Positions 12,130 to 31,543 of a stretch of DNA of 34,334 bases are shown piece after piece. The DNA comes from Acidobacteriaceae bacterium (GTDB lineage Bacteria > Acidobacteriota > Terriglobia > Terriglobales > Acidobacteriaceae). Position 1 is the stretch's first letter. Each line of letters opens with the position of its first letter. Where the stretch lies: NCBI GenBank assembly GCA_003132325.1, contig PKXK01000111.1:1-34334 (forward strand), read 5' to 3'. The notes below the pieces were generated by a model, which saw only the letters and a program-made list of their open reading frames with translations, did not search any database and was not told the DNA's origin. Made by a program: the position numbers and the translations under genes.

Positions 12130-12138
12130 ACAACATTG

Positions 12139-12284: not shown

Positions 12285-13223
12285 ATGAATCTAGGCAACC
12301 GAGAAGTGGCAGGGCATCCGCTGCCTACGTCGGGCATCGCAACTGGCATTCAAATTGGAGTGCGACCGGCGGAGACGGTCATCCCTGCGTTCAATATCCC
12401 TTATCTGCCGATGATGGAGCCGGTAGTCGCTGCTCTGCGTGAAACGGACTGTTTTGGGATGATCGCGGTGGCGCGCTTGGAGTGGATCAAGTTCGAGGCG
12501 CGCAGCCTGCGGGCCGTGCATGAAGAATACGAACGGGTCGGGGATGAACGCTTTACGCGACTCCATCTGGACCATATTCCGGTCATTGACGAGGACAACC
12601 TGCGGGTTGATTTTGAGGCTGAAATCCGGGAGGCGATCAGGCTCGGGTACCAGTCCGTAATGGTGGACGGTTCCCGGTTGTCGTTGGAGGAGAACATTCA
12701 AGCAACGCGAAGAATCACGGCCATCGCGCATGCCGCAGGGATTCCTGTAGAAGCGGAGTTGGGGGCCGTTCTCGGTCACGAAGCGGGGCCACTTCCTCCT
12801 TACGAAGAACTCTTCGCAACTGGCAAGGGTTTCACATCGCCTGAGGAGGCAAAACGGTTTGTTGCCGAAACAGAAACGGACTGGCTCTCGGTGGCGGTCG
12901 GGAGCGTGCATGGGGCTCTGATGAGCCACTGTCAGAAAGTAGAGGCGAGGTTGGACCTTGCGCATTTGCAGCGGATCCACGAAGCGACACGAATTCCATT
13001 GGTGTTGCACGGAGGGAGCGGGATTAAGACGGAGTACATTCTGGAAGCGACGCGCCGTGGCATCGCAAAGATCAACATCGGCACCGCAATCCGCCAGGCT
13101 TATCAAGCCGCCCTCCCCATCTCCCTGGTGTCCGCGCAACAAGCAGTGCACGATACCACGGTGCTGATTCTAAGGGAGTTAGGGCTTCAGGGAAGCCGGA
13201 AGCTCATTCATCTGGATTCGTGA
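12285..13223 (+). CDS. Class II (GatY/KbaY/FbaA-type) ketose-bisphosphate aldolase family protein
   Basis: VIPAFNIPYLPMMEPVVAAL...HLDHIPVID...GYQSVMVDGSRLSLEENIQATRRITAIAHAAGIPVEAELGAVLGHE...LVLHGGSGIK...IAKINIGTAIRQAY; internal Met at 12285 preferred over track start 12195. Confidence 0.85.
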   Translation: MNLGNREVAGHPLPTSGIATGIQIGVRPAETVIPAFNIPYLPMMEPVVAALRETDCFGMIAVARLEWIKFEARSLRAVHEEYERVGDERFTRLHLDHIPVIDEDNLRVDFEAEIREAIRLGYQSVMVDGSRLSLEENIQATRRITAIAHAAGIPVEAELGAVLGHEAGPLPPYEELFATGKGFTSPEEAKRFVAETETDWLSVAVGSVHGALMSHCQKVEARLDLAHLQRIHEATRIPLVLHGGSGIKTEYILEATRRGIAKINIGTAIRQAYQAALPISLVSAQQAVHDTTVLILRELGLQGSRKLIHLDS

Positions 13224-13312
13224 TTCCCGGGCAGGTTCGGGATACTGCTGGGTGGGGCCAGCTTAGAACTTGGGGTGGTAAAGGCTAGAGAAGCTTTTCG
13301 AACTTACAACGT

Positions 13313-14605
13313 TTGCGATTTCGCCGCATGAAGCCTAACCATGAGATCACGGAGAACGTCCCGTCCGAAATGCGGGCGCTGGTCCTTGACGGCGTTGGCT
13401 TCGAACACCTAGCCGTCCGGAAAGTTCCGGTGCCGAGTCCCGGCGCACATCAGATGTTGGCGCGGGTGGAAGCAGCCGGCATCTGCACGTCTCTGATCAA
13501 ACTCATTGAACAGGGACCGGACCACAACCTGATGCACGGCTGGGATGTGCGCCGCTTTCCCGCGATTCTTGGCGACGAAGGTGTGGTAACCGTCGTGTGC
13601 GTCGGAGAGGCGCTTCGGAACCAGTACCGGCTGGGTGAGAGCTATGTCGTCCAGCCCGCCGTGGATCACGAGCCCGTCAATCATCGCGAACGGTATCGCA
13701 ATGCAGGCCAAGGAGTGAATAAGGTGGCCGTGGGCTACACCCTCGCGGGTCATCTCGCCGAGTACATCCTCATCCCGGAAGAGGTTCTGAACTCCGGATG
13801 CCTGTTGCCCGTTCCTCTGCCACACCCGCCATTTGCGCACGCCGCCATGAGTGAGCCGCTCTCCTGCGTTGTCTCGGCCCAAGAGCACCACATGCATTTG
13901 ATCCAGAGTAGTCCGCTGGCCGCGCGGGAAGCCGTGAAAGGACTGAAGCGGGGAGGCGTCACCGTGATCATCGGGGCGGGCGCGATGGGGCGAATGCACG
14001 TCGACCTGGCCTTTCCCTACCGGCCACGCGCGATTGTGGTGGCAGATTTTCTGGAGGCTCGTTTACAGGTTGTCCGGAAGCTCTTCCAGGCACGGGCAGC
14101 GGAAACAGGAATCGCGCTGCACACGGTCCACGCTGCTTCCAGCTCGGTTGAGAAGGTAGTCGCTGAACTGACAAACCTTCTCGGGGCGGACGATGTCATA
14201 GTTGCGGTGGGGTCCAAGAAGGCGATCGAGGGCGCCCAGAATATGGTCGGGCGGGGCGCCGTGCTCAATCTTTTCGGAGGACTGAAAAAGGGCGACGACA
14301 TCGTGGGCATCGATGCCAGCGCGGTTCACTACAAAGAGATCAACGTCACCGGATCGAGTGGCGGCTCACCGTGGGACATCGCGCGTACGTTGCAACTCAT
14401 CGTGGCGAAAGAGATCGATGCCGGTGCGCACATCACCCGCGTGGGCGATCTGGAACATGCCATTGAACTGCTCAAGTTAGTGAAGGCCCAGCAAATCGAC
14501 GGCAAAGCCGTGGTCTACCCGCATCGGCGTACCCAAAACATTCACAGCGTGGATTCGTGGTCGGGGGCGGACGAACGCTCCTACCTGCAAGCAAGCGAGA
14601 TCTGA
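13313..14605 (+). CDS. Zinc-type/MDR alcohol dehydrogenase, possibly SorE (sorbose-1-P reductase)-like
   Basis: MRALVLDGVGFEHLAVRKVPVPSPGAHQMLARVEAAGICTSL...GVTVIIGAGAMGRMHVDLAFPYRPRAIVVADFLEARL. Start could be the later Met at 13328. Confidence 0.75.
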   Translation: MRFRRMKPNHEITENVPSEMRALVLDGVGFEHLAVRKVPVPSPGAHQMLARVEAAGICTSLIKLIEQGPDHNLMHGWDVRRFPAILGDEGVVTVVCVGEALRNQYRLGESYVVQPAVDHEPVNHRERYRNAGQGVNKVAVGYTLAGHLAEYILIPEEVLNSGCLLPVPLPHPPFAHAAMSEPLSCVVSAQEHHMHLIQSSPLAAREAVKGLKRGGVTVIIGAGAMGRMHVDLAFPYRPRAIVVADFLEARLQVVRKLFQARAAETGIALHTVHAASSSVEKVVAELTNLLGADDVIVAVGSKKAIEGAQNMVGRGAVLNLFGGLKKGDDIVGIDASAVHYKEINVTGSSGGSPWDIARTLQLIVAKEIDAGAHITRVGDLEHAIELLKLVKAQQIDGKAVVYPHRRTQNIHSVDSWSGADERSYLQASEI

Positions 14606-15940
14606 GTGTCCCTCTCGGGCAATCGCGCATTCGTCGGCTTCGGGTTCGGCGCCATTCAAGCCGGCCTCTTCCTCTGCGAAGCCTTTCGCTCAGGAAACTT
14701 TCGCCGGCTCATGGTCGCCGAGGTCATGCCGAATGCGGTGCAGGCGCTCCGCCAATCGGCGGGAAGTTATGCGGTCAATGTGGCATACCGCGACCGGGTG
14801 GAAGCGGTAGAGATCGGGCCCACTGAGATCGCGAATCCGGGGAACCAGTCCGACTGCAAGTTTCTGGTGGCGGCGGTTGCTGAAGCCGCAGAAATCGCAA
14901 CCGCTTTGCCGAGTGTGGCGTACTACACCTCGGCCTCACCGGGAAGCGTGCACCGGATTCTGGCCGAGGGGCTTAGGCGGAAGGCCATTGCGTGCGGTCC
15001 TCCAGCAGTCGTTTATGCCGCCGAGAACCACAACCATGCGGCCGAAATCCTGGAAGCTGCGGTCCTGAGTGAGATCCCCGGGCACGAGCATAATCAGGTC
15101 CATGGCCGCGTCTCATTTCTCAACACGGTGATCGGGAAAATGAGTGGCGTGGTCACAGACCCGTATGAGATTCAAAAACAAGGCCTGAAAACGGTCACGC
15201 CGTTCGAGTCCCGGGCCGTCCTGGTGGAGGCCTTCAATCGCATTCTAGTTTCAAGAACATCCTTTGGAGATCGACCCGCCACTCTGGGCTTCCACCGTGG
15301 CATCGAAGTGTTCGAAGAGAAGCCGGACCTGCTCCCTTTTGAGGAAGCGAAACTCTACGGACACAACTCAACCCACGCCGTCGCTGCCTATCTCGGAGCG
15401 GTCCTGGGTGTGGGACGGATCGCTGATCTGGGGAGAACTTCTGGAGTGACCGCATTTTTGGAGGCCGCATTTGTCGACGAGTCAGGGGAGGCACTCATTC
15501 GCAGACATAAGGGTAAGGATCCTCTGTTCACACCGGAAGGCTACCGAGCGTATGCCACGGACCTGCTGCTGAGGATGTTCAATCCTTACTTGGGCGACAC
15601 GGTGGAACGCGTGGGCCGCGATCCAGGACGGAAGTTGGAATGGGACGACCGGTTGGTGGGCACGGTTCGCCTTGCCCTGCAGCAGGGCTTAAACCCGGTG
15701 CGTTACGCAATGGGTACGGCCGCTGCCGTGACTGCGCTCGATAAGTCTGCCCTCGATTCAACCGTGCCGTTGCAGGAACTCTTGGATCCGGTCTGGCATA
15801 AGGCTTCGCCAAACCCGGCTGAGAGGGAAGCAGTGCTAAGAGCTGTAGAAGAAGGTCGAACGAGATTGAGGCTCTGGCGCCACGATGGTTTCCCGAACCT
15901 GGAAGCGTTCGTGGAACGGAACCTGTCCGTTCGGCGCTGA
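14606..15940 (+). CDS. Mannitol-1-phosphate 5-dehydrogenase-like polyol(-phosphate) dehydrogenase, GTG start
   Basis: AFVGFGFGAIQAGLFLCEAF Rossmann start, YAVNVAYRDRVEAVEIGP, AENHNHAAEILE (cf. ACEN of MtlD); GTG immediately follows the TGA of the preceding gene. Confidence 0.7.
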   Translation: MSLSGNRAFVGFGFGAIQAGLFLCEAFRSGNFRRLMVAEVMPNAVQALRQSAGSYAVNVAYRDRVEAVEIGPTEIANPGNQSDCKFLVAAVAEAAEIATALPSVAYYTSASPGSVHRILAEGLRRKAIACGPPAVVYAAENHNHAAEILEAAVLSEIPGHEHNQVHGRVSFLNTVIGKMSGVVTDPYEIQKQGLKTVTPFESRAVLVEAFNRILVSRTSFGDRPATLGFHRGIEVFEEKPDLLPFEEAKLYGHNSTHAVAAYLGAVLGVGRIADLGRTSGVTAFLEAAFVDESGEALIRRHKGKDPLFTPEGYRAYATDLLLRMFNPYLGDTVERVGRDPGRKLEWDDRLVGTVRLALQQGLNPVRYAMGTAAAVTALDKSALDSTVPLQELLDPVWHKASPNPAEREAVLRAVEEGRTRLRLWRHDGFPNLEAFVERNLSVRR

Positions 15941-16010: not shown

Positions 16011-18499
16011 TCACAAAATCTTCATTGGCAATCAAATGGACTCTGCGGCGTCCCCATCGCGACCTCTGGTGGGCAGCCGACCAACATTTTCCCTGATGGC
16101 ACCATCGATCCGCTGGCCGCGCGCCTGGCCGCGCTGTTTCCCGTCTCCAACAGCACCGCAGGAGGCGGCAACAATTTTCTTACCGACCCAAAACGCACCG
16201 AAAACCAGAACAAGTTCGCCGTTCGCTTTGACCAGAGCCTTAGCGGCAAGGACAATTTTTTCGCCCGCTTCAGCTACGGCAAAGACAGTACTTTCCTGCC
16301 CTCGCCGTTCAGCAATGCGCTCGACGGCGGCGGGTTTCAGGATGGCTACAGCGAAAACTCAGCCCAGGGGCTGGCTGCCAGCGAGATCCACAGTTTTAGC
16401 AACAACCTCATCAACGAATTTCGCTTCGGCCTCAATCGTCTGCATTCCCACCGCTACAATTTAAACTACAACGTCAACGAATCGCAGATCCTCGATTTTC
16501 CGGGAGTTCCGTTCGGTCCTGACCTCGGCGGCCTGCCCTCCATCGGCTTCAGCGATGGCACCGCGCAAATTGGCAGCTTCGGATACCTGCCCTCCATCGA
16601 AAAGCAGAACAGTTACGTGTTTACCGACAACCTCAGCTGGATGCACGGCCGCCACGCCGCAAAATTCGGCGCTGAACTCCGCTTCGAGCAGTTCACCATA
16701 TACCAGCCGGCTTCTCCTCGAGGCAACATGAGCTTCGGCAACGAGTTCACCGACAACCCCGCCTCACCCGGATCCGGCGGCGAGTCCATCGCCACCTTCC
16801 TGCTCGGCATTCCCGACGGCGGATCCATCCCCAGCCTGCACAACGTTGATTATCGCCGCCAGATATACGCGGTCTATGGCATCGATGACATCAAAGTAAC
16901 TCCGCGCCTCACTCTGAACCTGGGTCTCCGCTACGAACTCTTCACCACCATCAAAGAGGCGAACGACCAGGCGGCCACGTTCGATTTCAACTCGCTCTCG
17001 CTGATTGTTCCCAGCGGACAAAACGCGCAATTAACGCCCACGCTCGGCACCGAACTCACCATGCAGCGCAACGGTTCCCGCGGACTCATTCGTCCCGATC
17101 TCAACAATTTCGCGCCGCGGATCGGACTCGCCTACCAATTGAGCGACAAGCTCGTCCTCCGCAGCGGCTATGGCATCTTCTATGGCGGGCAGGAAAACGG
17201 CCCATTCTCCAACCCGAGCCCCGGTTTCAATCCTCCATTCTTTTCTTCGCAGGTATTCACCCCGCCCTGTAGCGCAGCCTCAGCCAATCCTTCGCAGCTC
17301 GATTGCTCGATCTCGGCCGCGAACTCCGGTTTGGCGTTGAACGTCCTGGCGAATGGTTTTCCCGCCAACTCGCTCAGCGACCCAAATTCGCCGAGCCTGT
17401 ACTCCATCGACCCGCACCTGGTCACGCCCTACACGCAACAGTGGCACCTGGGTCTGGAATACCAATTGCCCGCCGACACCGTTCTCGAAGTTTCCTACGG
17501 AGGCTCGCGCGGATTGAAGCTCTACGCTTTCTACAACGGCAACCAGGCGACTCCCACGACGGATCCCACGGCTGCCACCGCGCCGCGCCGTCCCGCCAAC
17601 AACAATGCCTGGCCCGGCGCCACCGGCCCCTGTACTCTGGCGACCCCCGGCAACTGCAATCCCGCGCTCGATACCGCTATCGCCACCTTCCGCTCGAATA
17701 CGCAGTCGAATTACAACTCGCTGCAGGTTCGCCTGGAGAAGCGCTACTCTCATGGACCTCAATATGAAGTGGCTTACACCTTTGCGCACGCTCTCGACAA
17801 CGCTTCCAGCGCCAGCCTGGGATCGGTGAACAATGGAGATTTCCGCGACCAGACCCGCCCCAACCTGGAATACGGCAATGCCGACTTCGACGTGCGCCAC
17901 CGCTTCGTTTTCAGCTATACCTACGACTTACCCTTCGGCCGTGGGCACATGTTTGCCAAGAACGCTTCCGGCCTCGTGAATCAGATTCTGGGCAACTGGC
18001 AAATGACCGGCGTCTTTTCCGCCGCCACCGGCAATTACTACACTGCCACGGACGTGGTTTCGGTCTCCAATACCGATTGCGGCGGTTTTGTCGCCTGGCA
18101 GTGCTCACGCCCCGCCCTGGTCGGCAATCCCAACGCCAAGCCGTGCATCCCGGGAACGCTGTTCAACACCTGTGCATTTGCAGACAACAGTACCATTCCT
18201 GGAATTATCCCCCAGGGCACATTCGGCAACGCCGGACGCAACATCATCCAGGGCCCCGGGTACAAGACGTGGGACACCTCTCTGGTCAAACAGTTTCCGA
18301 TTTCTGAGCAAAAGAAAAGCATTTCGAATTCCGGGCGGAACTCTTCAACGTGCTTAACCACGTGAACTATTTGTTTGGAAGTTTTGGTGCGATCAGCGTC
18401 GAGCCTACGCCCCTGGAACTTGGTCAGCCCGGATTCGGCTTCCCCCTGGCAGCGCGTGATCCGCGACAGATCCAGTTCGCGCTCAAGTTTTATTTCTAA
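16011..18499 (+). pseudogene. TonB-dependent receptor (Oar-like, Acidobacteria-type) remnant: 5'-truncated and frameshifted near the 3' end
   Basis: ORF 16617..18365 reads through upstream to about 16011 in the same frame (GTIDPLAARLAALFPVSN...ENQNKFAVRFDQSLSGKDNFFARFSYG); no signal peptide or plug. At about 18315 the frame must shift to give HFEFRAELFNVLNHVNYLFGSFGAI...RDPRQIQFALKFYF*. Confidence 0.8.
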
Positions 18500-18690: not shown

Positions 18691-20277
18691 ATGAAAAGAG
18701 AATCATGCCAACCAGGAAGAAGGCTTTTGGGCCGGTTCGTATCGCTGCCTTTGTCGGGATCACCAATAGCCCCTGCTACCGCAGCACTAAGAACCCCCTG
18801 CAAGTTATTTGTCGTGCCCTCGATCATAGTTTTGGTAACAGTTATCTTTGTACTACACCTGCAAGCACAGACCCTGTCGGGTCCGACTTATTCGGAGTGG
18901 AGAATCTCTCCCGCCTCGATCACTGTCGTCCAGGGCAGTTACACGGGGTCGATTACGGCGCTGAACACGAAAGACCAAACCGGCACCCAAAACATTGCAG
19001 CCGACTACGTTCAATTTGGAACGACCGGCGGGCAGCAGTTTACGGGTTACTTCAGCTTCACCGTTCCCAGCGGGGTTACGGCGTCCCAGATCACTTCGAT
19101 CCAGCTCATGGCGAATGTCCTGGCTCCTAAAGACACGGCGGATAGCTGGGACTACAGCATCTACAACTGGAAGAACGCTGCCTACGAGCACCTGGGCAAT
19201 CAGAACCACTGCGGGGGTTCCACCGGCCTGCACACCTGCAGTGATGATTCCAGTAGTTTCCTTGACTGGAGATGGAATCAATACAACGCGAACGGCGACG
19301 CCACAAAATCCGATTACGTTAACTCCACCACCGGCGAAATCCGTATCCAACTGGCCTCCTCCAATGCGTCGAGCTACGAGGATATAGATTGGATCTCCGT
19401 AGCGGTCTATACCAGCAAAGGCACTGGCGCCATCTTCTATCCGCCCACGACCTACCGCTGGCAATACCAACTAACAGCCACAGCAGCAGACGGAACCTCT
19501 TATCCGTCAACTCAGGGAATCGACACGACGGTTTGCGCGGTTCCTTACACCGGGGGCGCCTGCGTAGAGCCACTGATTATCAATTTCGATTTTTACGAGA
19601 GTTCTTCGATTTCGGGATCTAACAATTTTCTTTACGCTACGGGGGCCGTGAACTCGTTGCATTCCATGAGCAAGAAAGCGATTGGTTACGTAGACGCGGG
19701 CGATGTCGAACAGGGCCGTCCCGACTACCAACAATATGTGGACTTCGATAACGCATGTTCCGGCTGCCTGATCGGGAATCCTTTCTCCGGGTTCCGAAGC
19801 GAGTACATGCTCAACATCAACAACGATAAAGGGCAGGCTGACTTCATTCGTAAAATGGTTTCGGCTCGCACCGACAGGGTCGCCGCGAATGGCTTTGATG
19901 CCGTGGAGTACGATGTCCTCTGCAATTACGAGAACAAATCAGGCTTCACCATCACTGACGCCACGCAGGCGAGTTTTAACATCTCGCTGGCGGCGATCGC
20001 GCACAACCATTTCTTATCGGTTCCTCTAAAGAGCGACGTGGACCAGGCCACGGAGTCACCCATTGAGTCGGCATTCGACTTCGTGATTGATGAGCAGTGT
20101 AACCAGTACAGCCAATGCGGGAACTATTCCTCATGGCAAGCTGCCAGCAAAGCGATATTCAACGTCGAATACAAGCTCGCCACGAGCAAATTCTGCCCGC
20201 AGGATAACTCGGCTAATATCAATGGCATTTTGAAGAATTACAGTTTGGACGTGACTCCATACACGGCCTACCGCTAA
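18691..20277 (+). CDS. Secreted protein with a GH114-type (endo-alpha-1,4-polygalactosaminidase) C-terminal domain and an N-terminal beta-rich domain of unknown type
   Basis: Hydrophobic N-terminus (LFVVPSIIVLVTVIFVLHLQAQ); AIGYVDAGDVEQGRPDYQQYVDF...FDAVEYDVLCNYENKSGFTITDATQASFNISLAAIAHNHFLSVPLKSD...FDFVIDEQCNQYSQC matches the GH114 pattern; AGGAGAG Shine-Dalgarno before ATG. Confidence 0.75.
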   Translation: MKRESCQPGRRLLGRFVSLPLSGSPIAPATAALRTPCKLFVVPSIIVLVTVIFVLHLQAQTLSGPTYSEWRISPASITVVQGSYTGSITALNTKDQTGTQNIAADYVQFGTTGGQQFTGYFSFTVPSGVTASQITSIQLMANVLAPKDTADSWDYSIYNWKNAAYEHLGNQNHCGGSTGLHTCSDDSSSFLDWRWNQYNANGDATKSDYVNSTTGEIRIQLASSNASSYEDIDWISVAVYTSKGTGAIFYPPTTYRWQYQLTATAADGTSYPSTQGIDTTVCAVPYTGGACVEPLIINFDFYESSSISGSNNFLYATGAVNSLHSMSKKAIGYVDAGDVEQGRPDYQQYVDFDNACSGCLIGNPFSGFRSEYMLNINNDKGQADFIRKMVSARTDRVAANGFDAVEYDVLCNYENKSGFTITDATQASFNISLAAIAHNHFLSVPLKSDVDQATESPIESAFDFVIDEQCNQYSQCGNYSSWQAASKAIFNVEYKLATSKFCPQDNSANINGILKNYSLDVTPYTAYR

Positions 20278-20288
20278 AAGCATGATGA

Positions 20289-20326
20289 GATACTCTCGAC
20301 AGCGTGCGATAGCTGTCGAGAGTATC
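20289..20326. terminator. Perfect 15-bp stem hairpin (GATACTCTCGACAGC-GTGCGATA-GCTGTCGAGAGTATC)
   Basis: Exact inverted repeat 12 nt after the GH114 stop codon; no U-tract, so terminator is a tentative label. Confidence 0.55.
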
Positions 20327-20419
20327 ATGGGCCCGATCTTCCGCTTTTGCGGTAAGCGCAAGTAGACGCGAGCCACTCCTGCAACTGCGCCCGAAGGATC
20401 TGCAGAGTTTGGAGGCGAA

Positions 20420-21781
20420 TTGGCAGCTGCAACTACTGTGTCTGAGCTTACTCCCAAGCTTCGTCGGGCGCTGGGGCTCTGGGATCTTATTCTCTACGGC
20501 ATTGTTGTTATACAACCGACGGCTCCCATGCCGGTGTTTGGCGTAGTAAGCGAGCGAGCTCATGGCCATGTGGTCACGGCCGTATTGATTGCCATGGTCG
20601 CGATGCTCTTTACCGCGATCAGCTACGGCCGGATGGCAAGGGCTTATCCGAGCGCAGGGTCGGCCTTCACCTATGTTGGACGAGAAATTCACCCTGCCCT
20701 CGGATACGTGACCGGTTGGGGCATGGTGATGGATTACCTGCTGAATCCGCTGATCTGCACCATCCTGTGCGCTCAGTTAGCTCGCAATCTCGCTCCGGGC
20801 TTACCTTACGTCGCTTGGGCAATTGTTTTCGCCGGGCTGTTTACCGGTCTCAACCTGTTTGGGATTCGTACATCGGCACGAATCAATGAAACGCTGGCAA
20901 TCGGAATGGGTGTAGTCATCGCCATTTTTTTCGTGGTGGCTGCGCACTACATATTCCGGCACCCTCACGCAGAAGCGGGATTTTTCACCGTGCCCTTCTA
21001 CGATCCCGGCAGGTTTCAATTGAAGTCCGTTTTGGGAGGGACGTCGCTGGCAGTTCTCACCTACATTGGCTTCGACGGTATTTCGACCCTTTCGGAAGAA
21101 GCAAAGAATCCAACCCGCGACATTCTGGCAGCCACGGTGCTTGTCTGCCTGGTCACGGGCATACTGGCGGCGTGCGAAGTGTACGCTGCGCAGTTGGTCT
21201 GGCCGACTTCCAAACTGTTCCCTGACGTGGATACTGCCTACGTACACGTGGCAGGGCTGGCGGGTGGCGCCTGGCTGTTGCAGTTGGTCAACGGAACGCT
21301 CCTGGCGGCAACGGTTGGCTCCGGAATGGGGTCGCAACTGGGCGCGGCCCGGCTCTTGTACGCCATGGGCAGAGGCAACGCGATTCCCAAGGCGTTCTTT
21401 GGCGCGCTCGATCCAGTCACGCGAATTCCCCGCAACAACGTTCTGTTTTCCGGCGCGCTCGCCCTCGTGGGCGCGCTTACCATCAGCTTTGCTCGCGGTA
21501 TCGATCTGCTGAACTTCGGTGCGCTGATTGCGTTTATGGGAGTGAATGCGGCATCTCTCGTTCGCTACTATTTCCGGTCGCCTTCACGGGGCGCGCGCGA
21601 TTTCTTCCCACCCGTGCTCGGGTTTCTGGTTTGCCTTCTGTTGTGGTGGAACCTGAACTCAAGCGCCAAACTCGCAGGCACGCTCTGGATGTTAGCGGGA
21701 TTGGCGTATGGCGCCATTCGGACGAAGGGATTTCGCGGGGAGTTGGTTAACTTTGACGCACCGCCGGCCGATCAGGAGTAA
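20420..21781 (+). CDS. APC-superfamily amino-acid permease, TTG start
   Basis: ALGLWDLILYGIVVIQPTAPMPVFG...AYPSAGSAFTYVGREIHPALGYVTGWGMVMDYL, about 12 TM segments; GGAGG directly upstream of TTG 20420. Confidence 0.88.
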   Translation: MAAATTVSELTPKLRRALGLWDLILYGIVVIQPTAPMPVFGVVSERAHGHVVTAVLIAMVAMLFTAISYGRMARAYPSAGSAFTYVGREIHPALGYVTGWGMVMDYLLNPLICTILCAQLARNLAPGLPYVAWAIVFAGLFTGLNLFGIRTSARINETLAIGMGVVIAIFFVVAAHYIFRHPHAEAGFFTVPFYDPGRFQLKSVLGGTSLAVLTYIGFDGISTLSEEAKNPTRDILAATVLVCLVTGILAACEVYAAQLVWPTSKLFPDVDTAYVHVAGLAGGAWLLQLVNGTLLAATVGSGMGSQLGAARLLYAMGRGNAIPKAFFGALDPVTRIPRNNVLFSGALALVGALTISFARGIDLLNFGALIAFMGVNAASLVRYYFRSPSRGARDFFPPVLGFLVCLLLWWNLNSSAKLAGTLWMLAGLAYGAIRTKGFRGELVNFDAPPADQE

Positions 21782-21807
21782 AGCTTCTTTCCGTCTTCGG
21801 ACGATTT

Positions 21808-24348
21808 CTATTCAATCCCGTGGTAGCGGGCGGGAGGCGGAAGCGTGATTGAGCCACTCACTTCAACGGTCGCGCTCTTCTCCGCTGGAACTCCATCCAA
21901 TCCGTCAACGATCAGCCTGGCCCTATAGCTTCCGACCGTGGTGTAGGTGTGGGTCACTTGTCTGCCCTCCTCTGTTGTCCCATCTCCGAAGTCCCAGTGA
22001 TACGAGAGAGGGGGCACGCCGTTGGGAGCCAAAGCACTGACGAACTTGAGTTCTTCGCCGACCTTGGCGCGGTCTGGCGCCTGCAGGCTCACAGAAGGCG
22101 CTGCAGCGGGGACGGACGGATCAACTATCTTGATCAGCTTCACGGAATGGGCCGCCAGTTCGAGCCGAATGGAATTGCCATCGGGCGATAATCGGCGCGC
22201 CGGTTCGAGGGCATCGTGCAATTCATAGACAGGCCCACTAGGAAGATTCAATTCAGAGAGTGAGAAGACGCGAGATCTCGTTTGTTCAGTCCAGTTGAAT
22301 ACCGCCAATATCGACTGCCGCTGATCTTCCCGCAGCAAAAAAACGCTCGGCTGCTCGTCTTCCGGGCGATAGGTGAGGAGATCCAGGGGAAGCGAGGCGC
22401 GGCCGAGTTTCGCCATTCCCAGCAGGTCTGGATTTTTAAGTAGTGCCACCCGGTCCGCGTCTGCTCCCAGGGTGGGAAGGTCGTCGCCGATTTCGTACAA
22501 TCCTCCCGACACCGCCGCTAGCGCGATCGACACCTCGGCCTCGTCCAACGTAAGCGGAGCCTGAATTTCGCGCTCCTCCATCAACTGGCGCGACACCGTA
22601 AAGGCGTCGGGGTCATTGATGAAAAAGTTTCGGTGCATGTAGAAACGGGCCGCGATTCCCGGGGCGGCTTCCTTGCTGCGCGAAAACAAGTGGCCGGTAT
22701 CCTGCGACACCCGGCCGTCATCCACCAGGCCCACCGGGTTCAGCATCGGGCTGCCATCTTTGTCCAGCAATACGTGCTCGCCAACCGCATTGCGAATGAC
22801 TTCCAGCCCCGTCCGCTGGGCTTCCAGAGCAGTTGTATTCGGTCGAAAATAATGGCCCTCGATGGCCGTATTGTCCATGAAGTCGAGCTTGATGTACTGC
22901 ACTCCCCACTCGTTGACTAGCGAGCGGTAGGTGTTGCGAAGATAGTCTTGTGCGCCGGGATTTGTCGCGTCCAACACGAACACGCGTTCTGTAGGCATCT
23001 CCTCCGCGGTCGTGATCTGGATTGGCTTGCCATTCAAGTTTTGGACCAGCCAGTCTTTGTGCTTCTCGTACACCCAGCTCCGCTCCCCTACTTCAAAAGG
23101 GGCGGTCCATACACCGATATTTAGTCCCAGCTTGGAAATACGGCGAGTCAACGTCCCCATTCCATGAGGAAACTGCGACGCGTTAGGGGTCGTGTATTCG
23201 TTACGGGCATAGCCGTATCCCAAATCGAAGTGAAAGTAGTCATAACCTAGCGGTTTCAAGTGCTGCGCGAGCCAGAGCGCGTTGGTGAACGTGTTGCCCT
23301 CAGTGATCTTCGTGTAGTAGGCAGTCCAGCTCCACCACCCGAGAATATTGTCCTCGGGGATGCGGCTGTGGTGCAGTTCACGAATAGCGGCACCATAGTT
23401 TTCAAGTTGGGCGAGGTAGTCGGTACCAGCGGCAAACATCAATCGCTCGGAAGTCATGTTCTCGCCGCTAGCAAGGGGCAGGCTCAGTTCAACCAGATTC
23501 TCGGCAGGTCCTTCGTGCAGTCCTGACTCCGGATCGGAGCCTTGAATTTCAGTCGTGCCGGTGGAATCGATTGTAAGAGCACCGGTTGAGGGGCCATCGG
23601 ATCCGGGCCGCGCTTTCAAGCGAATGATCGTCAGGAAGCGATCTGACGAAAGAGCTCCGAAGAATACGCTTTCTTTGCTCTGTTGGTTGTACACCAGTTG
23701 ACTGCCCACGGCCCGATGCATGCCATTTGGCGCTTGGCCCAAATCGTAAATGCGAAGCGGTGGCCAATCTTCACTGAAGCTGTCGGATAAAATCCGGTCT
23801 GAGCTTTCTTTGCCGTGGAGATTTAGGACCTGCTCGCCGGTGGCCTCTAAGCAGCGGATACTCTCGACGGACAAAGGTTTTCCCGTGTGATTCTGAACCA
23901 CAACCTGAATATCGCCGAACGGTCGGGTGTCGTAAGTTCGGATTGTGTACACCAGGGCGGGATGATCGGGGAGTCCGGTCGAGGTGACGGTGACCTGGTG
24001 ACCCTTACCGAGTACATCTTCGAACAAGGATTCCGAAACCTGATGCTGAGGGTAGTCCGTCGACGCAATCCACTGATGGTTAACCTGTGCTGCCACTCTC
24101 GCCCGAAACATGGTGGGCCAGTTTGCGCTTAGTGCAATCCTGTACGAACCATCATTAGAATCGATGCTTACGAGCAGGCTGTCATTCTTAAGCGTGGCGT
24201 CGGCGGCACAAGCTAGACTCACGAACAAGAAAATGGCAACTGAAAGCATGAGCCTCGGCAAAAAAGAAGTGGCAGTAGTCTGGGGGCCCCGTATCGGTTG
24301 ACCAACGGCGAAGTTGAGTGTGGTCCTGCACGTTTCTTCCTTTGCCAA
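21808..24348 (-). CDS. Secreted alpha-galactosidase (GH36/GH27-like clan GH-D) with C-terminal PKD domain; probable TTG start
   Basis: WWSWTAYYTKITEGN...YDYFHFDLGYGY...VQYIKLDFMD (nucleophile region); C-terminal YHWDFGDGTTEEGRQVTHTYTTVGSYRARLIV (PKD); signal-like LMLSVAIFLFVSLACAADA; AGGAGG Shine-Dalgarno upstream of TTG at 24348 (track start 24447 less likely). Confidence 0.82.
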   Translation of the reverse strand: MAKEETCRTTLNFAVGQPIRGPQTTATSFLPRLMLSVAIFLFVSLACAADATLKNDSLLVSIDSNDGSYRIALSANWPTMFRARVAAQVNHQWIASTDYPQHQVSESLFEDVLGKGHQVTVTSTGLPDHPALVYTIRTYDTRPFGDIQVVVQNHTGKPLSVESIRCLEATGEQVLNLHGKESSDRILSDSFSEDWPPLRIYDLGQAPNGMHRAVGSQLVYNQQSKESVFFGALSSDRFLTIIRLKARPGSDGPSTGALTIDSTGTTEIQGSDPESGLHEGPAENLVELSLPLASGENMTSERLMFAAGTDYLAQLENYGAAIRELHHSRIPEDNILGWWSWTAYYTKITEGNTFTNALWLAQHLKPLGYDYFHFDLGYGYARNEYTTPNASQFPHGMGTLTRRISKLGLNIGVWTAPFEVGERSWVYEKHKDWLVQNLNGKPIQITTAEEMPTERVFVLDATNPGAQDYLRNTYRSLVNEWGVQYIKLDFMDNTAIEGHYFRPNTTALEAQRTGLEVIRNAVGEHVLLDKDGSPMLNPVGLVDDGRVSQDTGHLFSRSKEAAPGIAARFYMHRNFFINDPDAFTVSRQLMEEREIQAPLTLDEAEVSIALAAVSGGLYEIGDDLPTLGADADRVALLKNPDLLGMAKLGRASLPLDLLTYRPEDEQPSVFLLREDQRQSILAVFNWTEQTRSRVFSLSELNLPSGPVYELHDALEPARRLSPDGNSIRLELAAHSVKLIKIVDPSVPAAAPSVSLQAPDRAKVGEELKFVSALAPNGVPPLSYHWDFGDGTTEEGRQVTHTYTTVGSYRARLIVDGLDGVPAEKSATVEVSGSITLPPPARYHGIE

Positions 24349-24672
24349 GTGACGCCTCCTGGGTTTGACGACAGAAAGGGCTATGTTTTTAAACACAATG
24401 AACATATTACTATACACAACGTGCAGACATCTATTACAATCGCGCATATATACTCACTAACGCTCCTAATGGTTTACGCGGGTTGGAGGTAACCGGCATG
24501 CAAAGAATCGTTCTCGTGACCGTGGTCGTTTCTGCTGTTTACGATATCTTGCGCCAGCCAGGTAACAGCGCCTTCGAATAATCCGCAAACCTTTAGGATC
24601 GGAATCGCCTGCATCGCTCACCGAGGCCGAGTGGAAGGCGCTTGCGTCTTTAGAACCGATCGATACCCATAC

Positions 24673-24950
24673 TGTAGTGCACCCCTCAGAACTGGACACA
24701 TGGGGCCGTGTTTGAAGTAAGGGTTTGGGCGAACCGGGCACGAGCGTCGTGCGGGGTTCGTCCGTGGAGTCCGCGATGCGGACGGTCGTGATTGTACTCC
24801 TCGATCCAACGAGCGATGCTCAGCTCGGCTTGGTCAAAGTTCTGGTATTCGTTGAGCCATACCTCCTCTTCTTTCAAGCTGCGATGGAACCGTTCGATGT
24901 AGCTGTTGCCCTCGGGATGGTTGTAGGCGGTGCGCCCATGCCCTTCATGC
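24673..24950 (-). mobile_element. IS3-family transposase C-terminal fragment with candidate terminal end (TGTAGTGCACCCCTCAGAACTGGACACA)
   Basis: HPEGNSYIERFHRSLKEEEVWLNEYQNFDQAELSIARWIEEYNHDRPHRGLHGRTPHDARARFAQTL, stop at 24686; the IS-end-like sequence starts at about 24673. Confidence 0.78.
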
Positions 24951-25938
24951 CGTCGGTGGATGCTCTTCGGATTATTCGCTTCCCGACTCTAAGTTGCGCG
25001 TAGATGAAATGAGGATCACCCCTGTGCGGAACAAGAGCATTGATTTGCTGATTAAACGCAACTTCGCGATCAGTCATAGCTGCATTGCCGATGCAATCCG
25101 GGCTTCCGGCAATGCAGGTCACCAGTATGGAATTCGCCGGCGCAGTTCGCGCCACCGACTTACCGATTGCAGACAGACCCTCGCTTGCTTTGGTCAGGTA
25201 ATAGTACGGTGTGTTGATGTTGTCGGACTTAATCCACTCGATTGCACTTCCAAAGTACTCCGCTTTATCCCGTGACGGAGTGTTCCCAGTTATCACCGTA
25301 CCGATCTCATGAATGGGTACAAGCGGCCAACCCCGAGGGTTCGTCGCAGGGTCACCGAAGAGGTCGAGGAAGAGAGATTGGGTGAGCGTGTCGAGTTGGG
25401 CGAGGGCGGAGCGGCGCTTGGCCCGCAATGACTCCGCCCGGTCCAGCGTCTCCGCAATCCGCTGCTGCTGCGCCAAGGGCGGAACGGGAAGGTGCATTCC
25501 TAAAAGAGAGTCGCGCCCGACCGTGGCTTGATTCACCCACTGGCGGCACATGCCTTGGAATACTCTTCGCTGAAATTGCAGCATCAGCCAACGAGCCAGG
25601 AAACGCCCGTCAAGCCTGTCCGGGCGTGGCCGTAGTCGCAAGAAATGATTGCTGAATACTGCTGGCTCTTCATATCCCGGGAAAAAAGCTGATTTTCCGA
25701 CAAGTTCCGGGCTGTTCGTAGCGTTGAACAGCACATCTCCGGCCTGCAGTAAGTATGTGTCCAGATGTCCAGTCTCTCTCGGAACGCGTCGTTTCTTCGA
25801 GAAATCGAACTCGCCCTCCGTCGTCACATTGTTCATCCGAAATTGAAACACACCGTCCTGCGGGTCGTCGCCACATGCGAAACCTGGTTTCGCATCAATC
25901 AAAACATCTGCCAGTGGCGATGCTCCCCAAACGCTCAT
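24874..25938 (-). pseudogene. hsdS: Type I restriction-modification specificity subunit, 3'-truncated by the IS3-type fragment
   Basis: First TRD, then conserved region MHLPVPPLAQQQRIAETLDRAESLRAKRRSALAQLDTLTQSLFLDLFGD, then second TRD GWPLVPIHEIGTVITGNTPS...FIYAQLRVGKRIIRRASTDGMKG, where homology switches to transposase at about 24950. ATGA overlap with hsdM. Confidence 0.82.
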
Positions 25939-27473
25939 CCCAGCATCCCCTCTAGCTCCCTCATCCCCTGCTGAATCTCCACCTCCAGCCGTGCCAAGTC
26001 TGCGAGGATCTCCTTCGGCGGGCGGTGAGCGATCTCCTCGTGAACCACCTCTTTATACCGGTTGAGGCTGAGGTCGTAGCCTTTCGATACCAGATCGGCT
26101 TTGGGCACGCAGAAACTCTGAGCGGTGCGCGGACGCTTGCGCTCGCTGTCATCGCGTTGTTGCCAGCGGGCGAGGATGTCGGGCAGGTTGTTCTTGGCAT
26201 GCTCGTCGGTGGTGAGCGCGGTCTTGGGTGCGACGCCGAGCTTGTCTTCCGGGAGGAGCGCTGTGCGTTTGTCGTCCAGCGACCAGCCGTCCTCCTCCAT
26301 GTCGTAAAACCACACCTGATCGGTACCGCCGGAGTTGGTCTTGGTAAAGAGCAAGATGGCTGTGGAGACGCCGGCGTAGGGTTTGAACACGCCGCCGGGC
26401 AGCGAGATAACAGCGTCGAGCTTCTGCTCCTCCACCAGCATCCGGCGCAGGGACTTGTGCGCGTTACTTGATCCGAATAGAACTCCGTCAGGCACGATTA
26501 CAGCGGCTCGCCCGCCAGGTTTGAGCAGCCGCAGAAATAGCGCCAGGAAAAGTAGCTCGGTCTTCTTCGTCTTGACCACCTGCTGCAGGTCCTTGGCGCA
26601 GCTCTCGTAGTCCAGCGAACCGGCGAACGGAGGATTGGCCAGCACCAGCGTGTACTTTTCTTCTTCCCCGGCATGGTCTTGTGCGAGCGAATCCCGATAG
26701 GTTATGTCCGGGTTTTCCACTCCGTGCAACAGCATGTTCATGCTGCCGATACGCAACATGGTGTTATCGAAGTCAAAGCCGTGGAACAGATTGTTGTGGA
26801 AGTGATCGTGCAGCTTCTTGTTGGTCAGCACCTCCGTGTGATGCTCGCGCAGGGATTCGCCCACGGCCACTAGGAAACCGCACGTTCCACAAGCCGGATC
26901 GCACACAACGTCATTGGGCGTGGGCTGCACCATTTCCACCATGAGCCGGATAATGTGGCGCGGCGTGCGAAACTGGCCGTTCTGCCCGGCGCTGGCAATC
27001 TTGCTCAGCATGTATTCGTATAGATCGCCCTTGGTGTCCCGGTCTTCCATGGGCACCTTGTCAATCATGTCCACGACCTTCGCCAGCAGCGCGGCCGTGG
27101 GAATGGTGAAGCGCGCGCCCTCCATGTGCTTGGCGTAGGTTGACCCGGTGCCGCCCACCGTCCGCAGCCAGGGGAAGACGTGCTCGCTGACTAAGGTGTA
27201 CATTTCCCGCGCTTCCATATTCTTGAAGCGGTTCCAGCGGAAGTCCTGGTAGGACCGTTTCTTGCTGTCCTTACCCTCGGGAAAGAAGCGCTTGGCCATC
27301 GGCTTCTTTTCCCGATTGGCCTTCAGCTCTTCAGCGATTTCCTGCTCGTCCAAGCGCTTAAGAAACAGCAGATAGGTAATCTGCTCAATGACTTCCAACG
27401 GGTTGGAAATACCGCCCGTCCAGAAGGCATTCCAGATTTGATCGATTTGGCTGCGAATTTCGCCGGTAAGCAT
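25935..27473 (-). CDS. hsdM: Type I restriction-modification N6-adenine methyltransferase
   Basis: HsdM N-terminal bundle, DVVCDPACGTCGFLV (motif I), LVLANPPFAG (NPPF motif IV). Confidence 0.95.
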   Translation of the reverse strand: MLTGEIRSQIDQIWNAFWTGGISNPLEVIEQITYLLFLKRLDEQEIAEELKANREKKPMAKRFFPEGKDSKKRSYQDFRWNRFKNMEAREMYTLVSEHVFPWLRTVGGTGSTYAKHMEGARFTIPTAALLAKVVDMIDKVPMEDRDTKGDLYEYMLSKIASAGQNGQFRTPRHIIRLMVEMVQPTPNDVVCDPACGTCGFLVAVGESLREHHTEVLTNKKLHDHFHNNLFHGFDFDNTMLRIGSMNMLLHGVENPDITYRDSLAQDHAGEEEKYTLVLANPPFAGSLDYESCAKDLQQVVKTKKTELLFLALFLRLLKPGGRAAVIVPDGVLFGSSNAHKSLRRMLVEEQKLDAVISLPGGVFKPYAGVSTAILLFTKTNSGGTDQVWFYDMEEDGWSLDDKRTALLPEDKLGVAPKTALTTDEHAKNNLPDILARWQQRDDSERKRPRTAQSFCVPKADLVSKGYDLSLNRYKEVVHEEIAHRPPKEILADLARLEVEIQQGMRELEGMLG

Positions 27474-27614
27474 AAGTCTTTAGGGAGAGACCGATAATGC
27501 TACCTCATCATGGGAGTTACCTGCACTACTGTTTGTATGGAGAGGGTTCACGGCGACGAGCGTGACGCAGTCATTATCAGCATCGGATATGGCAAGGACC
27601 GGCGGTAGTCGATA

Positions 27615-28784
27615 TCAGTCATGGCGCTCTCCTTCGGGGTCAAGATTCGGCGATTCTCGCTGAGCACGTCCGACAGACGCCCGGTTCTCCAGTTCCCTGC
27701 GGGAGCGTTCCAGTTCCTCGGCGATGAGCTTTTCGTCTGGAAGGACAGTCTGATATTCGGCGGCGAGGACCTTGCTCGGGAGATTGTCGAGTGCGTAGTG
27801 AGCCTCTGCGGCTCCTTTTTCGGCGCACAGAATGAGTCCGACTGGCGGGTTCTCTCCCGGCTTCATCCAGTGTTCGCGGGCGTAGTTCAAATAGAGGTGC
27901 ATCTGGCCTGCGTCGGCGTAACTGAACTTCCCAACTTTCAAATCCACGATCATAAGCGCTCGTAAACGGCGGTGGAAGAACACGAGGTCAATACGAAACC
28001 AGGTGTCGTCGATGCGAAGTCTGCGCTGGCGGGCAAGAAAGGCAAAATCATCGCCCAACTCCAAGAGAAAGTCCCTGAGGTGCTGGATGAGCGCGTCTTC
28101 CAAATCTGACTCGGAGTACTCATCTTTGAGGTCGAGGAATTCGAGAACGAACGGGTCCTTGATGGCTTCTTCGGGTGTCACCACATCGCTGGGTGCGGAG
28201 TTCTCTGCTTTCTCCATCATGGCGGCTTTGTTTTGCGAAAGTGCGGTGCGTTCGTAGAATTGACTGCCGATCTGTCTGTCAAGTTGGCGAACCGACCAAC
28301 CCGAACGCAGGGCTTCGGTCTCGTAGAAGCTGCGAGCCTCCGGATTTTTGACGGAAAGCAGCCGGACGTAGGCCGACCAGGGCAAAGGGAAGCGAGATGC
28401 GAGAGCTAGGACTGTTGAGGAGTTCTTCTCTATATCATTGAGATCGCTGGGGCTTGCAGATTCTCCAGACAGCGTCTGGAGAATCTTTGGATCGGGCCAC
28501 GCACGGTAAAATGCACGCATTTGCCAAAGATTTGCTCGACCAAAACCACGGCCAAATTGGCGCGTCAAATCCCCAGACAATTGCTCGATTAGCTGTTCGC
28601 CATAGTCAGCACGGTGCTCCCCGCCTTGTTCAAGCTTTACGATCCGTCGCCCAATATCCCAATAGACGGCAGTCATGATGGAATTCACATTCCGGGCCGC
28701 GGCTGAGCGGGCTGTTTTGAGCAGTGCGACGATTTCAGCGCGGATGTTGTTGTAGTTTTCTGGAATGATTGTCATCTTTGTCAT
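27615..28784 (-). CDS. YhcG/DUF1016-family PDDEXK nuclease
   Basis: VYWDIGRRIVKLEQ...YGEQLIEQLSGDLTRQFGRGFGRANLWQMRAFY N-terminal domain; C-terminal FRIDLVFFHRRLRALMIVDLKVGKFSYADAGQMHLYLNY. Confidence 0.9.
   Translation of the reverse strand: MTKMTIIPENYNNIRAEIVALLKTARSAAARNVNSIMTAVYWDIGRRIVKLEQGGEHRADYGEQLIEQLSGDLTRQFGRGFGRANLWQMRAFYRAWPDPKILQTLSGESASPSDLNDIEKNSSTVLALASRFPLPWSAYVRLLSVKNPEARSFYETEALRSGWSVRQLDRQIGSQFYERTALSQNKAAMMEKAENSAPSDVVTPEEAIKDPFVLEFLDLKDEYSESDLEDALIQHLRDFLLELGDDFAFLARQRRLRIDDTWFRIDLVFFHRRLRALMIVDLKVGKFSYADAGQMHLYLNYAREHWMKPGENPPVGLILCAEKGAAEAHYALDNLPSKVLAAEYQTVLPDEKLIAEELERSRRELENRASVGRAQRESPNLDPEGERHD
28458..28486. repeat. 13-bp perfect inverted repeat with 3-nt spacer (AGATTCTCCAGAC-AGC-GTCTGGAGAATCT) inside the YhcG gene
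   Basis: Arms 28458-28470 and 28474-28486. Confidence 0.9.
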
Positions 28785-28816
28785 TGCGACTCCTTCATCA
28801 TAAATTGCTGCCCCTG

Positions 28817-31537
28817 TTAGATCGCTATCCCTAGTCCTTGCGCGACGGATGGGGTTGGGTTGAGTTCCAAGGCGGAGGTCTTCGAGACATCGGCTCCCAA
28901 TTGGGGGGCAAGTTTTGCCATGTCGTCGGTGAAGAGCGTGGCCTCGTGGCTGGCGCGAGAGATGGAGACGTAGCCGAAGCGGGAGTTGAGCAGGTCCGGG
29001 TGGACGCCGGTGTCGGCGTGGACGAGGACGCGTTCAGCGGTGAGTCCCTGGGCGCTATGGCTGGTGACGGCGTAGCCGTGGTCGAAATGACGATGCTCGC
29101 TTGGGTCGAACTCGATTTGGCGATTGTTGGCGAGGTGGGCGGAGAGACGGCCATTGGGATGGACGGTCTCGATGGTGGCGAGCTCGCGATTGGCAACCCC
29201 GAGCGATTTGTCGGGCGCGGTGAACTGAATGCGGTCGCCCACGGAGAACTGGCGTTCGATCTCTTGGTAGACGCTAACGCCGGTTAGTCGGCGGGGATCG
29301 TAGGTGGCGATTTCTCCGTTCGCTTTCTCGACCGTGAGCTGGTTGGCGGCTGGGTTGATCGCTGCGACCGACGCGTAACTGCCTGCTTCGATTCCGATGG
29401 GTTTGCTGCCGCGCGTGTAGCGGACAACGTCGTCGATCTCGTAGTGGCTGGCCCAGGAGCGTTCGGCCCCGGTCATGTCCTGACGCGGAACCAGAACGCG
29501 GAACGTATGATCTTCCGTGGCGAGGGCGCCGGTGGCTTTCAACTCCTGGCGAACGGCGGCGTTGAGTTCGCGGCGGGAAGCATTGTCGGGAGAGACAATG
29601 AGAGTGTTCTCGGGCGCTTTGACGTAGCTCTTGGCGATGGCTCGGACGCGCTCTTCTTTGTCGGGAATTTCCTGTACTCGGCCCTTCTGTCCGAGTGCGT
29701 CGAGCGCAGCGGAGATTTGGCCCGTGGCCAGCAATTCGACGGTGGCTTTCAGGGCAGGGTCTCTTTGGCGGACGATCTCATCGAGCTTGGCAGTGCGCAT
29801 TCCGGCCTCCTGCAGCTGCTCGAAGGGGCGGCCCGCTTCGACGCCCTGATGCTGGCGGATGTCGCCGATCAAAAGCACGCGGTCATGGGGACCAAGCCGC
29901 GCAAGGAACTCGCGCATCTGGTTCGTGCTCGCGAGACTTGATTCGTCAATGAAAAAGAGTCGTTTCTGTCCTGGGTTGCGCTCCGCGTTTTGTCCGCGGG
30001 CTAGGAAACCTTGCAAGGTTCCAGCCTGGACACCCGCCTGCTCCAGTTGTTTCGCGGCGCGAGAGGTCGGGGCGAAGCCCTCGACCTGATAGCCCTGCGA
30101 TTCCGCGGCGCTGCGGATGACGGTAAGCGTGGTGGTCTTGCCCGCGCCGGCGAAACCTTGGATTCCGTGGATGCGGTCGGGCGAACTAAGCACATCTTCA
30201 ACGACACTCTTCTGTGCGTGGTTGAGATGCTGGTGCTGGTCGGCAAAGGCGATGGCTTGCGAACGCGAAAGCGCCGGCTCGACTTGGTTTTGTCCCTCGC
30301 GCATACGGCGGAGCGTTTCGTGCTCCGCTGCGATGGTTTTGGCGGTGGTGAACTGACGGCCTGGGACGCCCTGCCTACGGTCGACGATCTGAAATTCCCC
30401 GGACGCCAAGCGGGCGTCAAGATGGGCGCGGACCTGGTCATGGGTGATCTCGCCCATGCCGCGCCGCAGCCCGTCGCGGATCAGGGCGCGTTCGTCTACA
30501 ACCGCCTCGCGCTCGAAGTTTTTGTCGCGGGAAAAGGTGAGAGATTCGCGGACACGGTCTACCGAGTTCACCGGCCTTTCTTGATGCTGGAACCTTTCAT
30601 GGGCTGCTCGGACAACGGCCTCGGCCTGGTGTCCAAAGTCTGCCGCGAGCTTTCGGTGCGCGGCCATCACGTCGGCTGGCGAATGGATTTCTTTACGGTC
30701 GCGGGTCGAGTGTGCGGCGATTTCGGCGGCCTCTTTCCCAGAGCGGCCTGTGCGTTCGAGGTAATCACGAATCTGTTGGCTGCGGGGGCTGGATGCGTCG
30801 AGGTATTCCTGTGTGTATCCCTTGATCTCCGGGGCACCGCTCCGCCCGGTCGTAATTTCGTAACCGAGTTGGCGTAATTTGTATGTCAACTCGGACTGGT
30901 AGACAGCCGTAGCGAACTGCTGCGAGGCGAACAGACTGTGCGGCTGAATGGCACGCGGCTGGCCGTTGTCGCGCTCGGTGACGTTGAAAACGACCGCGTG
31001 GGTGTGTAGTTGCGGCGCGACATAGCCGTCGACCGGGCGAGCCGTATCGTGCTCGAACTTGGCGGCGATAAACTTGCCCGTGGTTTCGGGCGGATGGTTG
31101 CCGCCGATGCGGGCTTGTGTGTAGTGTTCGAGCTGGTCGAGGGCCACGCGGACGCTCTCACGATGCGCTTCGCGTACACGCGCATCGCCGCCGACAAGCG
31201 CGGTGAGCGAAACAGATTTGGGCGCGGAAAAGGTCGCATCCCACCCGGCACGATGCTCCATCGTCGTGACGGTTTTGCCGTCGGTATCCTGATATTTATA
31301 CGACGCTCGTTGCCGAACAAACTGCTCGCCTGTGTGTGGGTGCTGGCCCTGGCTGAGTTTCGCGAAGTCTTCGGCGGAGACGGCCCCGACAAGTCCGAAC
31401 TGCGTGGCCAATCGGCCTTGCCACTCGCCTGCGATGACGCCGCGTTGCGACCAATAGTTTTGCTCCTTGGCAGTGAATTCCTTCTGGTGGTAGGTCTGTG
31501 CCTGGCCGGCGGACAGCGGTTTTGAGATCGTCAGCAT
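28817..31537 (-). CDS. MobF (TrwC/TraI-type) conjugative relaxase-helicase
   Basis: MLTISKPLSAGQAQTYHQKEFTAKEQNYWSQ...HRAGWDATFSAPKSVSLTAL...PQLHTHAVVFNVT (HUH motif), IQGFAGAGKTTTL (Walker A). Confidence 0.95.
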   Translation of the reverse strand: MLTISKPLSAGQAQTYHQKEFTAKEQNYWSQRGVIAGEWQGRLATQFGLVGAVSAEDFAKLSQGQHPHTGEQFVRQRASYKYQDTDGKTVTTMEHRAGWDATFSAPKSVSLTALVGGDARVREAHRESVRVALDQLEHYTQARIGGNHPPETTGKFIAAKFEHDTARPVDGYVAPQLHTHAVVFNVTERDNGQPRAIQPHSLFASQQFATAVYQSELTYKLRQLGYEITTGRSGAPEIKGYTQEYLDASSPRSQQIRDYLERTGRSGKEAAEIAAHSTRDRKEIHSPADVMAAHRKLAADFGHQAEAVVRAAHERFQHQERPVNSVDRVRESLTFSRDKNFEREAVVDERALIRDGLRRGMGEITHDQVRAHLDARLASGEFQIVDRRQGVPGRQFTTAKTIAAEHETLRRMREGQNQVEPALSRSQAIAFADQHQHLNHAQKSVVEDVLSSPDRIHGIQGFAGAGKTTTLTVIRSAAESQGYQVEGFAPTSRAAKQLEQAGVQAGTLQGFLARGQNAERNPGQKRLFFIDESSLASTNQMREFLARLGPHDRVLLIGDIRQHQGVEAGRPFEQLQEAGMRTAKLDEIVRQRDPALKATVELLATGQISAALDALGQKGRVQEIPDKEERVRAIAKSYVKAPENTLIVSPDNASRRELNAAVRQELKATGALATEDHTFRVLVPRQDMTGAERSWASHYEIDDVVRYTRGSKPIGIEAGSYASVAAINPAANQLTVEKANGEIATYDPRRLTGVSVYQEIERQFSVGDRIQFTAPDKSLGVANRELATIETVHPNGRLSAHLANNRQIEFDPSEHRHFDHGYAVTSHSAQGLTAERVLVHADTGVHPDLLNSRFGYVSISRASHEATLFTDDMAKLAPQLGADVSKTSALELNPTPSVAQGLGIAI

Positions 31538-31543
31538 GACTGT

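Follow-up and report, generated by a model that had tools for sequence, protein, structure and literature searches.

A stretch of 34,334 nucleotides from an Acidobacteriaceae bacterium (assembly GCA_003132325.1, contig PKXK01000111.1; called the window here, at its full length) carries neighboring genes for a predicted secreted GH114 enzyme, a permease of the APC superfamily, and a secreted GH36 glycosidase with a PKD domain, termed GH36-PKD (Table 1). We propose that the GH114 and APC genes probably belong to a multicopy catabolic system for an α-1,4-galactosamine-rich exopolysaccharide, be it deacetylated fungal galactosaminogalactan or a bacterial Pel-like polymer. A more specific idea, which we put forward only tentatively, is that such clusters are dedicated bacterial utilization loci for this cationic polymer, combining endo-acting GH114 with exo-acting GH36 enzymes and relying for uptake of the free amino sugar on an APC permease rather than on a phosphotransferase system (PTS) or GGP-type permease. 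An earlier note had placed a GH114-like enzyme, a permease, and an α-galactosidase at positions 18691 to 24348 and suggested feeding on galactosamine polymers. All three genes are real, as evidenced by Pfam matches, and the suggested diet finds support for the system as a whole, through co-location and a homolog of the galactosaminidase FpGalNase in sister clusters (contig C294 of the same genome and palsa_359), but more weakly in the window itself.

The GH114 gene has an intact reading frame, with matches to Pfam Glyco_hydro_114 (PF03537; E = 3.3e-45) and GH114_assoc (E = 1.1e-18). Its nearest structure in the PDB is the Aspergillus galactosaminidase Ega3 (6oj1), found with an E value of 5.1e-15 from the single sequence and 3.7e-26 as a profile. 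The catalytic residues of Ega3 are Asp189 and Glu247 (PMC12054363), and Asp408 and Glu468 of the window protein align with them, so that the catalytic pair is kept. Because GH191-type structures score far lower than Ega3 against the same profile (9ep6, E = 2.6e-12; 9ep5, E = 8.8e-6), and TmGH191 (2aam) gave no match at E values up to 1, the enzyme is assigned to GH114 proper rather than GH191. It is predicted to be an endo-α-1,4-galactosaminidase with Asp408 and Glu468 as its catalytic residues. Family, catalytic Asp/Glu, and predicted secretion are shared with Ega3 and the fungal GH114 endo-α-1,4-galactosaminidases; unlike them, the window enzyme is bacterial, carries its GH114_assoc domain at the N terminus, and lies in a catabolic locus. 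An AlphaFold model, with a mean predicted local distance difference test (pLDDT) score of 33 and too shallow an alignment, was not used.

Two more GH114 loci are present in the same genome. The first, on C294, has the order LacI, NagB-like deaminase, PfkB, GH36b (a second GH36 glycosidase), APC permease, TonB receptor, GH36-PKD, and GH114; its GH114 of 341 amino acids stands in tandem with a frameshifted GH114_assoc-type remnant (fragments 32 to 42% identical to the window GH114), and its permease is 69% identical to that of the window. The second, on C13, is a GH114 gene cut off by the contig end; oriented divergently to it is a TonB receptor that shares 55% identity with that of the window. 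An alignment scan for GH114 in 85,462 species genomes returned two loci: L033, from a second species (palsa_359), in which the C294-type set is whole, intact, and unidirectional and is joined by an amidohydrolase and an AraD-family protein (11952-12668; over its curated cut-off), and L034 (fen_85), where GH36-PKD and GH114 are 96 to 98% identical to those of C294. Close relatives in named genomes came only from Acidobacteriaceae metagenome-assembled genomes labeled "palsa" and "fen," which we take to be peat sites; among 149 further genomes sampled from the order, the window-type clade had no match, and no GH114 relatives were found on viral contigs. The grouping of GH114, GH36, APC, and TonB genes, repeated on C294 and in another species, is more than chance, and the earlier note's expectation that hydrolases and sugar genes would keep company elsewhere is borne out by C294 and palsa_359, which add a deaminase and PfkB to that grouping. 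Locus L019 holds a second GH114_assoc-GH114 copy (1209-3135) that is frameshifted and stops short, with an IS66-like open reading frame (ORF) past it.

Known hydrolases of this activity class belong to polymer producers, and Ega3, Sph3, and PelA all come from organisms that make the polymer. The GH114 enzyme might, by analogy with PelA or Ega3, process an exopolysaccharide made by the bacterium itself, in a noncatabolic role. We regard this as very improbable, because the ORFs of the window, of C294, and of L033 include no recognized polysaccharide synthase or exporter; the neighbors there are receptors, glycosidases, and sugar catabolism genes.

The strongest single pointer to galactosamine is the homology of GH36b, found on C294, in L033, and on contig C73 of the same genome, to FpGalNase, the GH36 α-galactosaminidase of Flavonifractor plautii (PDB 9awt). 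The two align over their full length (E = 3.7e-90), and all six GH36b proteins compared keep seven active-site residues of FpGalNase: D463, C513, D532, W317, D346, W387, and K461. Alanine mutants of the first three are nearly inactive (PMC11762096). GH36b differs from FpGalNase at Y464, which is Phe or Asn, and at D347. The latter is Val or Ala in LacI/NagB-type clusters (L019, L033, and L082) and Asp in SIS-type clusters (L026, L080, and L081), a split that suggests two substrate variants.

Co-location was assessed as genes lying no more than 15 kb apart in 150 genomes of the order, against an expectation from random placement that ignores relatedness. GH36b has AgaS within that distance in 6 of 14 genomes (expected, 0.12) and GatZ in 4 of 7 (expected, 0.06). 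For GH36-PKD, the partners are AgaS (11 of the 21 genomes holding both; expected, 0.17), APC (9 of 16; 0.11), and GatZ (4 of 10; 0.06). Independently of GH36-PKD, the APC permease pairs with AgaS in 14 of 43 genomes with both (0.30) and with GatZ in 10 of 34 (0.22). Taken together, GH36-PKD, the APC permease, the AgaS-type deaminase, and GatZ are clustered about 45 to 80 times over the random-placement expectation.

The permease, whose class the earlier note had left unstated, is an amino-acid-type APC transporter and not a sugar permease. Orthologs also adjoin GH2 enzymes with an exo-β-D-glucosaminidase Ig domain, at L077 (contig C177 of the same genome) and L083, and the protein therefore fits the import of free positively charged hexosamines in general. 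These neighbors, and the fact that the window SIS protein scores best to GlmD, would also suit a bacterium feeding on glucosamine from chitosan, with the permease and the GlmD/NagB-like enzymes acting on glucosamine. GH114, the FpGalNase-like GH36b, and GatZ, however, all indicate the galacto-configuration, and a shared hexosamine permease fits both diets; we consider chitosan an improbable food for this system.

APC permease, SIS, and PfkB are also the protein classes of FrlA, FrlB, and FrlD, which raises the thought of an frl-like pathway for Amadori products of the fructoselysine type. One cluster kinase reaches 100 bits to FrlD, below the cut-off of 247. The window SIS protein, on the other hand, has more than 100 bits to both GlmD and AgaS versus 24.8 to FrlB (cut-off, 430), which does not identify it as an FrlB-type deglycase, and GatZ and the glycosidases have no place in frl, so that such a pathway is extremely improbable.

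Around the galactosamine system, the window retains a broken aga-type module. The SIS protein is closer to GlmD (3.4e-36) than to AgaS (1.2e-31; 110 bits to TIGR02815, cut-off 529), both matches being below curated cut-offs, as are the AgaS proteins of its relatives, at 301 bits or less. PfkB covers residues 1 to 183 of the 313-residue C73 kinase, at 92% identity. GatZ/KbaZ is a remnant, with near-complete or complete copies on C113 and C137 of the same genome and further copies in L040, L048, and L081. The TonB receptor has lost its first ~432 residues and has a frameshift near 18310; it corresponds to residues 433 to 1182 of the C13 receptor and then, in another frame, to residues 1178 to 1241. 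The aga-class neighbors listed by the earlier note (SIS, PfkB, class II aldolase, GatZ remnant, and DeoR) are thus all there, with PfkB and GatZ broken, like the TonB gene. An intact paralogue on C73 (L080; 86% DNA identity over 1.77 kb) comprises GH36b, TonB, an amidohydrolase, DeoR, SIS (89% identical), and PfkB, and the broken window copy probably leans on the intact copies on C294, C73, and C137.

From homology, intact catalytic residues, and repeated co-location, we propose a route whose activities, substrate, cellular locations, and order of steps are all predicted. Secreted GH114 would cut the cationic polymer internally, and the TonB receptor would import the oligomers. In the periplasm, exo-acting GH36 enzymes, chiefly the lipoprotein-like GH36b and possibly GH36-PKD of a Glu-bearing type (see below), would free galactosamine, which the APC permease would bring into the cell. 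A PfkB-type kinase, a deaminase, and a GatZ-type aldolase would then pass it to glycolysis. In the sister clusters, two unrelated deaminase folds, SIS (AgaS/GlmD) and NagB-like, occupy the same role; the NagB-like proteins keep the MDE and DGHIA motifs and have Gln in place of the Glu in the NEP motif of NagB. No AgaA/NagA deacetylase was recognized in the clusters (one NagA lies elsewhere in the genome, on C192), which suggests free galactosamine and is in keeping with a deacetylated substrate. GH109-like Gfo/Idh/MocA proteins with twin-arginine signals near some clusters were not used, because the single protein scanned matched nothing more specific than that family in general.

The proposed system is, in effect, the non-PTS aga pathway extended by polymer-cutting endo- and exo-galactosaminidases. 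In Shewanella, that pathway comprises the TonB-type receptor OmpAga, the permease AgaP, the kinase AgaK, AgaA, and AgaS (PMC2996990, PMC12118421). The acidobacterial clusters likewise combine a TonB receptor, permease, kinase, and AgaS-type deaminase without a PTS. They differ in having an APC-superfamily permease rather than the GGP-family one of Shewanella (PMC2996990), in holding no recognized AgaA/NagA, and in adding the galactosaminidases.

Several points weigh against this proposal. The activities of all its members are predictions. GH114 is rare, with a match of any kind in 9 of 398 genomes of the family. Canonical-type GH114s of other Acidobacteriaceae (L069 to L075) and of a distant acidobacterium (L076) lie away from aga genes, and co-location with those genes is therefore a trait of this GH114 clade only. 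The SIS, NagB-like, and PfkB proteins do not reach the curated cut-offs of their families, so that their exact reactions are predictions drawn from context, protein class, and motifs in the active site. The co-location statistics leave shared descent out of account. GH36b is absent from the window, and in the GH114-bearing clusters its D347 position is the one occupied by Val or Ala. Finally, GH36-PKD has lost a sugar-contacting Asp, and its window clade is linked to another operon.

The window GH36-PKD is not of the FpGalNase type: its matches favor TmGalA, the Thermotoga GH36 α-galactosidase (E = 3.8e-48), over FpGalNase (E = 1e-4). Its longest ORF begins at 24447, not 24348, and translation probably starts farther inside, directly before the signal peptide. 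The clan GH-D nucleophile D327 and acid/base D387 of TmGalA are kept in every GH36-PKD sequence covering them, and the family also keeps W190, D220, W257, K325, and R383. Apart from its C-terminal PKD domain, the family differs from TmGalA at Y191 (Thr, once Ala), D221 (Leu or Glu), and C368 (invariant Asp). We had considered the invariant Asp as a contact for the galactosamine ammonium group but do not count it as evidence, since FpGalNase has retained Cys (C513) at this position. Asp221 of TmGalA contacts O6 of galactose (PMC5132143); this position is Leu in the window clade and Glu in 28 of 32 GH36-PKD genes, and the full galactose-recognition set is not retained. An AlphaFold model (pLDDT 70) gave no gain over these sequence tests.

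At the counterpart position in GH27, α-galactosidases have Asp and β-L-arabinopyranosidases have Glu or Ile (PMC4598101), so that Glu or Leu in GH36-PKD may mark a different specificity. Moreover, the window protein forms one clade (support, 1.0) with 64% identical orthologs in L023 and L025, which are divergent to a DeoR/DhnA/FGGY/FucI operon headed by DeoR orthologs 80% identical to the window's. That operon (DeoR, in some cases DhnA aldolase, DUF4432, FGGY, and a FucI/SftI-like isomerase) is conserved next to Leu-type GH36-PKD in the window (2659-7808), L023, and L025; its substrate is perhaps a 6-deoxy sugar or pentopyranose. Given the lost O6-contact Asp and the tie of the clade to this operon, the earlier label of α-galactosidase stands as to the GH36 family and catalytic Asp pair and probably fails as to plain α-galactosidase activity; the enzyme may serve the second sugar module, and a role as glycosidase of the neighboring FucI/FGGY operon is likelier for it than that of the exo-galactosaminidase.

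Extended further, the same evidence, along with the AraD-family protein of L033, could make GH36-PKD, and perhaps the island, a device for plant sugars: a β-L-arabinopyranosidase or 6-deoxy-α-galactosidase whose product passes through a FucI/AraA-like isomerase, FGGY kinase, and aldolase, with GH114 as a bystander. This we judge unlikely, because the Glu-type family adjoins AgaS, GatZ, and NagB-like genes and the GH114 clusters hold a galactosaminidase homolog.

If the galactosamine system is real, it would give a nutritional answer to why bacteria hold endo-galactosaminidases, through an enzyme tied to uptake and catabolism. A study of GH114 and GH191 structures calls the bacterial possession of several such families an open question, and in it a bacterial GH114 could not be produced as correctly folded soluble protein (PMC12054363). 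A literature search pairing galactosaminogalactan with "utilization locus" found no paper. The system would also offer homologs, from soil bacteria, of the galactosaminidase employed to convert blood group A, candidate biofilm-cutting enzymes, and possibly an aga pathway with an APC-type hexosamine importer, the first of its kind. With the window copy partly decayed, the intact C294-like and L033-like clusters make the prediction testable.

Table 1. Genes and gene remnants of the window, with predicted functions
Feature	Position	Strand	Length and evidence
GatZ (tagatose-bisphosphate aldolase subunit) remnant	486-725	+	80 residues; PF08013 E 4.5e-12; tblastn 3.6e-11
PfkB kinase, C-terminally truncated	714-1343	-	Pfam 1.9e-15
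SIS-domain amino-sugar-6-phosphate deaminase/isomerase, GlmD/AgaS class	1359-2441	-	NCBIfam
FucI/SftI-like isomerase	2659-4248	-	Second sugar module (2659-6841)
FGGY kinase	4038-5573	-	Second sugar module
DUF4432 protein	5663-6841	-	Second sugar module
DeoR-family regulator	6990-7808	-	Top NCBIfam AgaR 1.1e-56, below cut-off
2-Oxoacid dehydrogenase E1/E2 pair	8079-11993		Between sugar modules
Class II aldolase (12195-13223), Zn-alcohol dehydrogenase, mannitol-dehydrogenase-like (MtlD-like) trio	12195-15940		Between sugar modules
TonB-dependent receptor remnant	16011-18496	+	tblastn of C13 receptor and translation; precedes GH114
GH114_assoc + GH114 secreted enzyme, predicted endo-α-1,4-galactosaminidase	18691-20277	+	528 aa; Pfam
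APC-superfamily permease, predicted free-hexosamine importer	20420-21781	+	453 aa; PF00324 E 1.1e-34
GH36 + PKD secreted glycosidase (GH36-PKD), Leu-type subclade	21808-24447	-	879 aa; Melibiase E 3.7e-13, PKD E 3.6e-17

The window makes up most of contig C204 (36.6 kb) in a draft genome of 5.3 Mb and 305 contigs (93.5% complete, 6.7% contamination). No RNA families or tRNAs were found in it, and the E1/E2 pair, class II aldolase, alcohol dehydrogenase, and MtlD-like genes lying between its parts showed no link to GH114. A conjugative element adjoins the sugar genes (24874-34334), with HsdS, HsdM, a YhcG/DUF1016 nuclease, a TrwC-type relaxase-helicase, and a TraD-like coupling protein; a VirB11-like ATPase lies directly past the window end.

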